Positions 43,603 through 46,040 of a stretch of DNA of 54,696 nt are shown one piece after another. The notes below the pieces were generated by a model that saw only the letters and a program-made list of their open reading frames with translations, ran no database searches and was not told where the DNA came from. Source of the stretch: Flavobacteriia bacterium (GTDB lineage: Bacteria > Bacteroidota > Bacteroidia > Flavobacteriales_D > Crocinitomicaceae); the NCBI GenBank assembly GCA_947455515.1, contig CANGOF010000005.1:1-54696 (forward strand), read 5' to 3'. The translations under genes were made by a program, and so were the position numbers. The stretch's first letter is position 1, and every line of letters begins with the position of its first letter.

Positions 43603-44295
43603 TCAATTTTTCTTTCTTTTCTTTAATTCTTCCAACCAAGCGATTTCGTCAATGACCCATTGTGGATCGGTATTCATATATTTTAAACCCATTTTATATT
43701 CTTTAATAGCTTTTTCGAAATCATTATATGTTACTTTATAAATATAACCTAACTCTAAATGACAATCGCTATTTGTCGAGTCAATTTTGATTCCATTCTT
43801 CAATACTTCCTTGGAATATTTCCACATACCATGATGTCGTAATTCCAAAGCCAAATTATAGTATAATTGAGCATTATTTGGATGTGATAATATTATATTT
43901 TTTAAACTATCAATCGTAAATTTGATTTTTTGTTTTTCAATTTGAAATTCTTTTTTACGAATACTGTAATAAATTTTATTATGTTTTTGACCTTCATAAA
44001 ATATAGTAGCATAAGTACCTCCAACAATTCCAATTATTGATACAATCATAATTAAGTAACGTTGTAAGCGATGCTTTCTATCTTTTTCAGTGGTTATCTT
44101 TTTAGAAAAAACTATACCTGAATAAATCAAAATAAATAACACCCAAATAATTAACACAAAATTTAATGTTAAGCCAATTCCAAGAGGGTCACAATTAGTG
44201 CAATCAAATACCATCCCATGAAGCGGGTACATCATCCAACAACAAATTACAATTGGAAGTATAAAAATTAAAAAGTGAATTTTAGATTTAAACAT
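43603..44295 (-). CDS. Membrane protein with TPR-like repeats, function unknown
   Basis: I do not recognise this as a named gene. The 230-aa protein has three hydrophobic segments in the first ~110 residues (FLIFILPIVICCWMM, LNFVLIIWVLFILIYSG, LIMIVSIIGIVGG). A C-terminal soluble region has TPR-like helices (HPNNAQLYYNLALELRHHG, SDCHLELGYIYK, FEKAIKEYKMGLKY). It probably sits in the inner membrane and binds a partner through the TPR region. The gap on its 5' side (44296-44375) is AT-rich without clear signals, then meets the inverted-repeat module at 44376. Confidence 0.75.
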   Translation of the reverse strand: MFKSKIHFLIFILPIVICCWMMYPLHGMVFDCTNCDPLGIGLTLNFVLIIWVLFILIYSGIVFSKKITTEKDRKHRLQRYLIMIVSIIGIVGGTYATIFYEGQKHNKIYYSIRKKEFQIEKQKIKFTIDSLKNIILSHPNNAQLYYNLALELRHHGMWKYSKEVLKNGIKIDSTNSDCHLELGYIYKVTYNDFEKAIKEYKMGLKYMNTDPQWVIDEIAWLEELKKRKKN

Positions 44296-44375: not shown

Positions 44376-44425
44376 TTATAAGTAGCCAAAACTATGTGTA
44401 TTGTTAGTATTTTGGCTAGCTATAT
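44376..44425. repeat. Inverted-repeat module 1 (17-16-17) over the ATPase stop codon
   Basis: Left arm TTATAAGTAGCCAAAAC (44376-44392), 16-base spacer, right arm ATTTTGGCTAGCTATAT (44409-44425). The ATPase stop codon (44420-44422, minus strand) lies in the right arm. Same geometry as the modules at 45848 and 45991. Confidence 0.88.
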
Positions 44426-45835
44426 AGCCAAATACAAACAATCAATCGTTAGTTCATTTTGCACAAATTGTCTTCTGTAGTTGTTTTTTACTAGTCCAAA
44501 GGTAGTGATATACGTGATGAAAATACTTTTTTTGGTTTTAGTAGCATCGACAAATACATTCATTTTATGCATCACATCATTGATTTGCTTTTTATCCAAT
44601 GAAAATTCCGTATTGTAGAATTTCATTTCACACAAGTTAATTACGTTATCATCTCGATCAATTAACAAATCAATTTGTGCATTTGAATCACTGTTTTTTT
44701 GAATCCAACTTCCGTTTACAGAATGTACACCATGAATTTTTAATCCTGACTTAATTTGCTCTACATGCTTCATACAAATTGTTTCAAAGGTAAAACCACT
44801 CCATACCTTCACACTTTGTTGTGCCTGAAGTTTCATCCAATAACTTGTAGAAGAAGGTTTTGAATTTTCAATATACTTGATGTAAAACATGGAATACTCA
44901 TCTGTTAATCGAAATAAAGCATCTTTGTTTCCTTTGTAGGGTAAATATTTTTCGATAAAACCAGACTCTTCCAATTCAACAAGTGTTTTGGACAAGGTCC
45001 CACCCGACTGGATTTTAATCTTTGCTACAATTTCATTACGCGTCATTCCTTTTCGAACATTTGCAAGCATACGAATAATCATTTCGTGATTTTCATAATG
45101 ATCAAATAAGGACGCGAAAATCATTTTAAATTCAGTACGTAAAAAACCATCTTTTTCAAAACATAAGCGATCTATTAGTTGCGGAACACTTTCTCCAGGT
45201 AAGATTTTTTCTAGGTAATGAGGAATCCCACCCATCGCCATATACACCTGTAAAATTTCATACCTAGATAATTTTACCTTGTTCGCACGTAGCAATTCTT
45301 CAGTCTCTCTTAAATTAAAAGGATGTAAATGAATATGCTGCGTAATTCGATTGTGTAAACCACCCTTGTTTTTGATGATGTTTTTAATCATGTAAGAAGC
45401 TGCAGAACCACAAATAACTACAACTAAATCATTTCGTTTTACCGCATAACTATTCCAGAAGCGGTCAAAAGCAGCTAAAAAGTTGGATTTTCGTGTATCT
45501 AACCATGGAAATTCATCGAGGAAGATCACTTTTTTCTTTTTGGATTTAAGAGAGTCAATGAAGTTGGACAATTGGTAAAAAGCTTCTGTCCAATCTTTCG
45601 GAATTTTATTCTTTGGAGATTGATTTTTTAAGGTAAAGTGAAAATTTTTAAGCTGTTGTTTTAATGAAGATTTATAAGTCCCTGAAAAATCAAAACACAT
45701 TTGCTTTGCAAAGGTATTTCGGATTAAATACGTTTTACCTACCCTTCTTCTTCCGTATACTGCAAGTAACTCAGAACGTGGAGTTGAAAGACAATTCAAT
45801 AAAATGGAAACCTCTGATTTTCTACCTACTACCAT
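44420..45835 (-). CDS. PF01637/DUF234-type AAA ATPase with C-terminal nuclease-like domain
   Basis: This is a 471-aa ATPase of the group once called archaeal-type ATPases. It has Walker A YGRRRVGKT (to Thr35), Walker B VIFLDEFPWLD (Asp107, Glu108), sensor VVICGSAASYM, then a winged-helix-like middle (MTRNEIVAKIKIQSGGTLSKTLVELEESG) and DUF234. A PD-(D/E)XK-like nuclease motif follows: Asp389 in QIDLLIDRD, and Glu403-Met-Lys405 in NLCEMKFY. All core residues are present. Its cellular role is not established. The gene stands alone, bounded by three copies of a 50-bp inverted-repeat module. A TACATTTG in the module at 45848 could be its -7 promoter element, with a short leader to the ATG. Candidate for a self-regulated or mobile gene. 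Confidence 0.88.
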   Translation of the reverse strand: MVVGRKSEVSILLNCLSTPRSELLAVYGRRRVGKTYLIRNTFAKQMCFDFSGTYKSSLKQQLKNFHFTLKNQSPKNKIPKDWTEAFYQLSNFIDSLKSKKKKVIFLDEFPWLDTRKSNFLAAFDRFWNSYAVKRNDLVVVICGSAASYMIKNIIKNKGGLHNRITQHIHLHPFNLRETEELLRANKVKLSRYEILQVYMAMGGIPHYLEKILPGESVPQLIDRLCFEKDGFLRTEFKMIFASLFDHYENHEMIIRMLANVRKGMTRNEIVAKIKIQSGGTLSKTLVELEESGFIEKYLPYKGNKDALFRLTDEYSMFYIKYIENSKPSSTSYWMKLQAQQSVKVWSGFTFETICMKHVEQIKSGLKIHGVHSVNGSWIQKNSDSNAQIDLLIDRDDNVINLCEMKFYNTEFSLDKKQINDVMHKMNVFVDATKTKKSIFITYITTFGLVKNNYRRQFVQNELTIDCLYLAI

Positions 45836-45847
45836 ATTTATAGTGTA

Positions 45848-45897
45848 TTATAAGTAGCCAAATGTAATGAAATTATATAAGTTTTGGCTAGATATAA
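45848..45897. repeat. Inverted-repeat module 2 (17-16-17) at the ATPase promoter
   Basis: Left arm TTATAAGTAGCCAAATG (45848-45864), 16-base spacer, right arm GTTTTGGCTAGATATAA (45881-45897), starting 13 bases before the ATPase start codon. Read on the minus strand, the left arm contains TACATTTG, a perfect TANNTTTG box, so the module could be an autoregulatory operator. Confidence 0.88.
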
Positions 45898-45990
45898 GTG
45901 TATTTTTTAGTGAAAAAAAAATAAAAATAATTTATAAAATAAAAAAAACTAAACTACTTAAAAACAACATTTTACGTAAAAAATACATGT

Positions 45991-46040
45991 TTATAAGTAG
46001 CCAAAACTATAGTTTTAATAGTAGTTTTGGCTACTTATAA
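45991..46040. repeat. Inverted-repeat module 3 (perfect 17-16-17 palindrome)
   Basis: TTATAAGTAGCCAAAAC (45991-46007), 16-base spacer, GTTTTGGCTACTTATAA (46024-46040). The arms are perfect inverses, extending to 19 bp if CTA/TAG are counted. Each arm, read outward, holds TAGTTTTG (a TANNTTTG match), so it could fire promoters both ways. The gap 45898-45990 between modules 2 and 3 is A-rich and otherwise featureless. Confidence 0.9.

Follow-up and report, generated by a model that had tools for sequence, protein, structure and literature searches.

The window analysed here is a 54,696-nt stretch of a contig from a Flavobacteriia bacterium (Crocinitomicaceae), and it contains a gene for an AAA+ ATPase accompanied by three palindromic modules. 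In gene orientation we named the modules A, B, and C; C corresponds to module 1, B to module 2, and A to module 3. The features of this locus are as follows.

44376-44425, no strand assigned: module C, downstream and over the stop codon; proposed right end of the unit
44420-45835, minus strand: gene of the 471-aa AAA+ ATPase/winged helix/PD-(D/E)XK nuclease, PDC-S27 family (from the ORF list, Pfam, PADLOC, and the structural model)
44423-44842, minus strand: predicted C-terminal PD-(D/E)XK nuclease domain, residues 332-471, with E351, D389, E403, and K405 (from alignment, model, and fold match)
44906-45094, minus strand: predicted winged helix-turn-helix, residues 248-310, recognition helix 278-290 (from co-variation and the model)
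45848-45897, minus strand: module B, palindrome directly 5' of the start, overlapping the promoter; putative operator
45859-45866, minus strand: -7 box TACATTTG (TAnnTTTG) in the promoter-facing arm of module B, approximately 31 nt before the start codon
45991-46040, no strand assigned: module A, outer upstream module with 19/19 complementary arm positions; proposed left end of the unit

The encoded protein matches ATPase_2 (PF01637, E=4e-20) in Pfam. An earlier note on this DNA had called it a PF01637/DUF234-type ATPase; the first half of that assignment holds, while the scan returned only ATPase/AAA families and no DUF234. The same scan found no DDE, HuH, serine, or tyrosine transposase family and no Transposase_17 (Y1). 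In PADLOC, the protein matches PDLC04984 (PDC-S27) at E=1.4e-191, with residues 2-468 of 471 aligned to profile positions 4-473 of 474. A search against NCBIfam gave nothing up to E 0.1, and a sequence search of solved structures gave two chance matches only (E 0.74-0.84). The AlphaFold model, built from 41 homologues (mean pLDDT 91.5), consists of an AAA+ core, a winged helix (helices 248-258, 266-273, and 278-290; strands 294-297 and 307-310), and a C-terminal nuclease. The nearest solved folds to the whole model are a Pyrococcus Walker ATPase (2qen), STAND ATPases, and Orc1/Cdc6. When modelled alone (pLDDT 82.7), the C-terminal part matches the restriction-type nucleases AF1548 (1y88), BspD6I, and NucS/EndoMS, of which only AF1548 reaches E <0.001, and by predicted fold it is a PD-(D/E)XK-type nuclease. 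The Walker A residues, D107-E108, E351, D389, E403, and K405, which are the predicted catalytic Walker and PD-(D/E)XK residues, are conserved in 82/82 aligned homologues (one further protein, with an internal stop, was omitted). A second PDC-S27 homologue in this genome (G000:C97:1958-3367; L006, L166) is 47% identical; its upstream half-sites are of the AGCGGAA type, and on the downstream side it has no significant palindrome.

A repeat finder run on the window recovered modules A, B, and C as one three-copy family of 50 nt with start-to-start distances of 1472 (C to B) and 143 (B to A), in agreement with the three modules described in the earlier note. The outer modules are 70% and 76% identical to the middle module B. 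The 19-nt arms of module A are 100% complementary; modules C and B are imperfect, with 3 and 2 mismatches, respectively, to TTATAAGTAGCCAAA in their second arms. Module C overlaps the end of the gene by 6 nt and thus lies over the stop, as had been noted, and module B is directly upstream of the gene, at 12 nt from the start codon rather than the 13 bases given before. Allowing up to three mismatches, TTATAAGTAGCCAAA occurs 13 times in the window compared with 3.9 expected, a count reached by 0/100 shuffles, and all four exact copies are at this locus. In the same assembly (167 contigs, 86.5% complete), a search with the arm pattern matched nothing beyond this locus except a single lone module, with a different arm type, on contig C6.

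Comparable modules accompany homologues of this gene. A homologue is present in 48 of 200 genomes of the family, and 28 further loci came from a species collection; many genomes in the sample are metagenome assemblies. Distant matches, at identities of roughly 22-26%, were left out together with some of the short fragments; L007 and L008 were also omitted, as they are the same loci as L036 and L037. Among the resulting 95 loci, 83 with a complete gene and flanks on both sides were used, and 12 that were cut by contig ends, frame-broken, or partial were dropped. Palindromes scoring at least 11.5 were found upstream in 68/83 loci and downstream in 35/83, the latter including two (L060 and L116) with a downstream palindrome unrelated to the module; the corresponding count in control windows from the same loci was 5/406. 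Both ends pass in 34/83 loci (matched upstream by at most 3/60 shuffles and downstream by at most 1/60). A strong downstream module is absent in at least 48/83 loci, and many clades show the upstream one only.

The comparison with homologous ATPases, which the earlier note had recommended, thus revealed repeats beside these genes with lineage-specific arms. The arm types include AGCCAAA, CGCCAAA, AGCGGAA, GTTCCAAA, GTGCCAAA, TTCCCAAA, CTACTTTA, and TTGGATTTA, and the half-site types among relatives include AGCGGAA and GTTCCAAAA. The layout is constant across lineages in that it combines an outer AT-rich part with a core and an inner gap of fixed length. The pattern TATANNNNGCCAAA-N{10,24}-TTTGGC gave 96 hits in 29 of the 200 genomes (a symmetric module being counted on both strands) compared with 12 for the backward control, and the gap was 19 or 20 in 90/96 hits although 10-24 was permitted. 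This evidence on the gap comes from searches permitting 10-24 and 17-21; the first co-variation run (see below) permitted only 19 and 20. The earlier note had regarded a widespread module with no link to such ATPases as evidence against its proposal. The absence of a link does not apply to the 64/96 hits that have a homologue or homologue fragment no more than about 0.5 kb away; it does apply to several lone modules among the remaining hits, and some of the remaining hits look like chance. Farther away, PDC-S27 profile matches were found in 20/118 genomes of the phylum, several of them weak, and L146, L147, L148, L150, and L152 from other orders or classes have the same module type as judged by eye. 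A Butyrivibrio plasmid gene (Bacillota) has CGCCAAAA half-sites upstream. Among eight named distant records, the upstream palindrome was matched by at most 1/40 shuffles in five; in Natrinema, Malaciobacter, and Segatella, shuffles were as good in 18/40, 8/40, and 8/40 cases, respectively. At greater distance, homologues have different palindromes or no significant one.

The two ends of a locus match each other. Similarity between upstream and downstream half-sites was scored in 36 loci with a module at each end. Among 18 representatives (<70% protein identity; L060 was included despite its unrelated downstream palindrome), the within-locus mean was 14.53 compared with 6.74 after permutation (SD 0.78, maximum 10.43), and 0/20,000 permutations were as high. 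The downstream module of the same locus ranks first in 13/18 representatives.

Half-sites also co-vary with the protein. We compared residue differences with half-site differences in 20-residue windows after regressing out overall protein distance, a statistic in which the contribution of shared ancestry is lowered and in part remains. With 82 loci, the top window starts at residue 275 (0.092). With 74 loci, i.e., following removal of eight loci with weak or opposite-orientation half-site calls after the 82-locus result had been seen, it again starts at 275, and with 45 representatives (<75% identity) it starts at 274; the mean partial correlations are 0.114 and 0.122, respectively. The best value outside residues 274-294 is 0.059, and label permutations gave 0/500 in each set. 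Two control DNA windows showed no peak at residues 274-294. In the model, the top window falls on the turn and the recognition helix; some single columns elsewhere than in the winged helix, e.g., 377, 126, and 160, score high as well. The co-variation with the winged helix supports the suggestion that the protein may read its own repeats.

The upstream module appears to be part of the promoter. In Bacteroidota, the -7 box has the consensus TAnnTTTG. This motif is found within 80 nt upstream in 67/83 loci compared with 5.4 expected from single-base shuffles, overlaps a called module in 55 of the 67, and lies 22-40 nt before the start codon in 48/61 loci with an assignable start. Since the expectation of 5.4 ignores the TTTG supplied by the arms, a comparison between arms within modules is the fairer test. 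TAnn precedes TTTGG in 48/55 promoter-facing upstream arms and in 14/53 opposite upstream arms, and in 14/28 and 11/28 of the two downstream arms. This bias indicates that the promoter-facing arm doubles as the -7 box. The earlier remark on promoter boxes within the arms thus holds at this locus and generalizes to the homologues, and the candidate binding site overlaps the promoter of its own gene. Protein bound at module B would block transcription.

Long and complementary arms, together with a module over the stop that would be transcribed, could also be expected of RNA hairpins acting as a terminator, an attenuator, or an mRNA stabilizer. The promoter box inside the upstream module implies that this module would not be transcribed whole, and we consider hairpins highly improbable as an explanation. 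They were rejected on two further counts, namely, the window has no Rfam match, and G:U mismatches are in no clear excess over A:C mismatches (24 vs 22 upstream, 8 vs 13 downstream).

The presence of the unit is patchy among close relatives. A parC match was found in 12/13 genomes of the genus, the exception being G116. Downstream of parC, the genome studied here, G024, and G054 have modules and the ATPase gene; G066 has a single module and a TPR gene without the ATPase; and G001, G085, G109, G122, and G093 have parC followed by bioA with neither module nor gene. Empty sites, which the earlier note had proposed to look for at parC, thus exist both with no module and with one. G077 was not counted since a different gene follows parC, and no information came from G101, in which the locus is cut, or from G041, in which the end of parC was not located. 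The genomes nearest in parC, G085 and G109 (93% identity, nearest in the set), are empty, and G024 and G054 (91%) are occupied. The G066 flank resembles both the sequence following C in the genome studied here (score 83) and those following A in G024 and G054 (72 and 73), each with 0/300 shuffles as good, and its module is closest to module A of G024; precise recombination of A by C is therefore only one possible origin of this site. Two other differences were observed here. The TPR-repeat membrane protein gene (43603-44295 in the window) follows the element in the genome studied here and is also found in G066, and is missing from the parC site of G024, G054, and the empty genomes, representing a second indel at that spot. 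In G077 (L072), parC is followed by a gene for a small secreted-looking protein of YESQAD-type repeats where relatives carry bioA or the element.

Loss of the gene from between two modules was found at another locus. G077 and G101 are 90.5% identical in parC and 90.8% in the left flank. G101 keeps module A, the A-B spacer, and a module and flank that match those of module C in G077 over 69/69 nt, and lacks module B and the gene, such that the deletion lies at a module edge. Beyond the flank of module C, the two genomes differ for 0.24 and 1.03 kb, and then the right flank is again 93.5% identical. In another pair, G067 is occupied and G056 is empty without a module, with flanks 79-80% identical. 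G013, G043, and G086 offered one flank only and were excluded as empty sites.

The crossover in G101 lies in a shared stretch of about 11-16 bp. This would suit modules that are simply operator copies used passively by host recombination or replication slippage, with no need for the nuclease activity, as would the existence of lone modules without a neighbouring homologue. Such passive loss can account for deletion; it does not account for the appearance, in a different genus and at an unrelated site, of a unit that is 92% identical and has both ends at modules, and we regard it as rather unlikely to be the whole explanation.

That unit is shared by G001, of the same genus as the genome studied here, and G045, of another genus. 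Their proteins are 95.5% identical, and the DNA is 92.06% identical over 1574 bp, from CGCCAAAAGTGG of module A to CTTTTGGCGG of module C, i.e., from the core of A's left arm to the core of C's right arm. These two arms are inverted copies of each other, and the homology stops at both. The surroundings lack homology apart from short simple repeats and, farther out, an inverted 77-bp repeat. With parC at 75.4%, the unit is far more alike than this gene, and its homology ends at the outer modules; in this high-identity cross-genus pair, the sequences thus argue that the unit moved recently with the outer modules as its ends. GGTTGA-type hexanucleotide arrays adjoin the transferred unit on opposite sides, in the left flank of L023 and the right flank of L110.

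A second pair, G077 and G085, shares 1605 bp at 84.5% identity, and this alignment extends 1 nt outside the edge of C and about 10 nt outside A. In this pair, parC is 76.7% identical, and the flanks have no detectable homology. Judged from these alignments, only G001/G045 and G077/G085 argue for transfer. Among pairs of 70-85% identity, many boundaries fall on module edges (e.g., right 44 vs 43, left -67 vs -67), and others fall short, inside the module or gene; in the 70-80% pairs, this coincidence could reflect purifying selection on the modules. With a query of reverse-strand sequence comprising part of the element and flank, a 78% match in G093:C55 ends 8 nt past the point where the G001 match ends. 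No target-site duplication was readable in the flanks, which are too AT-rich and diverged. In five Flavobacteriaceae loci (L042, L045, L046, L049, and L050), the gene stays at one place, and many copies of one element were not found in any genome examined. These two observations indicate that movement is rare.

Several perfect or near-perfect modules without an adjacent homologue were listed locus by locus. G067:C3 and G110:C33 have a lone module between the same two genes, G015 and G035 share the same lone module, G162 and G173 have nearly identical ones, and G050 has one. The lone module of the genome studied here (G000:C6:22967-23006; L107) has arm type TATACTCAGCC and, like the element of G077/G101, lies between two genes; it has no ATPase match alongside. 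L105 and L077 (both from 1501) are lone modules that two species carry between the same pair of genes, with flanks 74-79% identical and no homologue alongside, and their arms have changed on both sides mostly in step. Lone modules may have been left behind by lost units, or they may be sites that have their own role.

PDC-S27 is a candidate defence family in PADLOC, identified as a single-gene candidate by its embedding in defence systems (PMC12988326), and according to the same source, validation is pending for most such candidates. The part of that work describing the family gives 3503 archaeal and 4562 bacterial members in which an ATPase is fused to PD-(D/E)XK. The gene may be an immobile anti-phage defence gene for which the upstream module is an operator, the downstream copy loops the ends together or ends transcription, and patchiness is ordinary turnover. 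The upstream module is near-universal, unlike the downstream one, which agrees with such a role. However, this explanation predicts neither that the boundaries of transfer coincide with the outer modules nor that a deletion lies at a module edge. Moreover, among ten neighbour ORFs scanned out of 21 listed, the type I methyltransferase beside L048 was the sole defence gene; seven of the other nine belong to Pfam families with metabolic, cell-wall, or other cellular roles, and the remaining two had no Pfam match. An immobile defence gene is therefore unlikely in our view, and the embedding in defence systems may be a by-product of mobility, with the small sample of ten neighbour ORFs in mind. 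The gene beside L048 (4513-6129), hsdM, directly follows the PDC-S27 unit in Lutibacter and is an example of the embedding that made PDC-S27 a defence candidate.

Our preferred explanation, to which we assign a probability of roughly 0.55, is a self-addressed one-gene element. The ATPase/nuclease would bind the palindromic module via its winged helix, contacting two half-sites whose inner ends are 19-20 nt apart. When bound to module B in its own promoter, it would repress its own transcription. The outer modules, A upstream and C at the stop, would be the ends of a unit of roughly 1.5-1.7 kb. Gain, loss, and transfer would involve this unit as a whole, most likely once the nuclease had cut at the modules under the control of ATP, such that movement would be driven by the protein rather than by host recombination. 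We consider this the most economical account, as it would need one protein and one kind of site, with repression at B and ends at A and C. The earlier note had likewise suggested a mobile or self-regulating one-gene element that recognizes its own repeats, and the matching ends, the co-variation, and the empty sites give that suggestion support at the sequence level. More tentatively, PDC-S27 might represent a new class of one-gene transposable element, in which an Orc/STAND-like AAA+ ATPase with a winged helix and PD-(D/E)XK nuclease, instead of a transposase, recognizes lineage-specific ends, represses its own promoter from one of them, and uses the outer modules to excise and insert itself; mobility would then explain why it occurs in defence operons.

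These results bear on a family whose members in bacteria and archaea number in the thousands (PMC12988326) and which is called defence by genomic context. With a cognate module, PDC-S27 would have a DNA target and a regulatory circuit, and the choice between a defence gene and a selfish element would become directly testable. The diverged set of proteins and half-sites makes winged-helix specificity testable by module swaps between relatives. A gene presumed to defend against viruses may really be a small self-controlled mobile element.

Regarding known systems, the PDC-S27 proteins in PMC12988326 and PMC13356809 are of the same family and, as far as described there, have the same full-length architecture of an ATPase fused to PD-(D/E)XK. 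The passages on PDC-S27 in these two papers mention no cognate palindromes, promoter overlap, or unit boundaries. A literature search found no description of the modules; its scope lay outside bioRxiv and the preprint defining PDC-S27, so an earlier description is possible. The best solved fold match is the Pyrococcus abyssi Walker-type ATPase PABY2304 (PDB 2qen; E=2.4e-12), yet at 17% identity. Orc1/Cdc6 initiators and STAND ATPases have the AAA+ core and winged helix in common with the protein here, which has an extra C-terminal nuclease. An example is 2qby, a Cdc6/Orc1 heterodimer on origin DNA. These proteins are related to the one here by fold similarity alone (TMq 0.27-0.49 among the matches listed). 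REP/RAYT units, as outlined in PMC2817692, likewise consist of one gene delimited by palindromic repeats that diverge along with the protein. RAYTs are IS200/IS605-type tyrosine transposases, in contrast to the AAA+/PD-(D/E)XK protein here, in which no transposase domain was found; REPs usually occur in high copy number, whereas modules here are few per genome (three and one lone module in the genome studied). In its logic, the element resembles REP/RAYT units, built on an unrelated enzyme.
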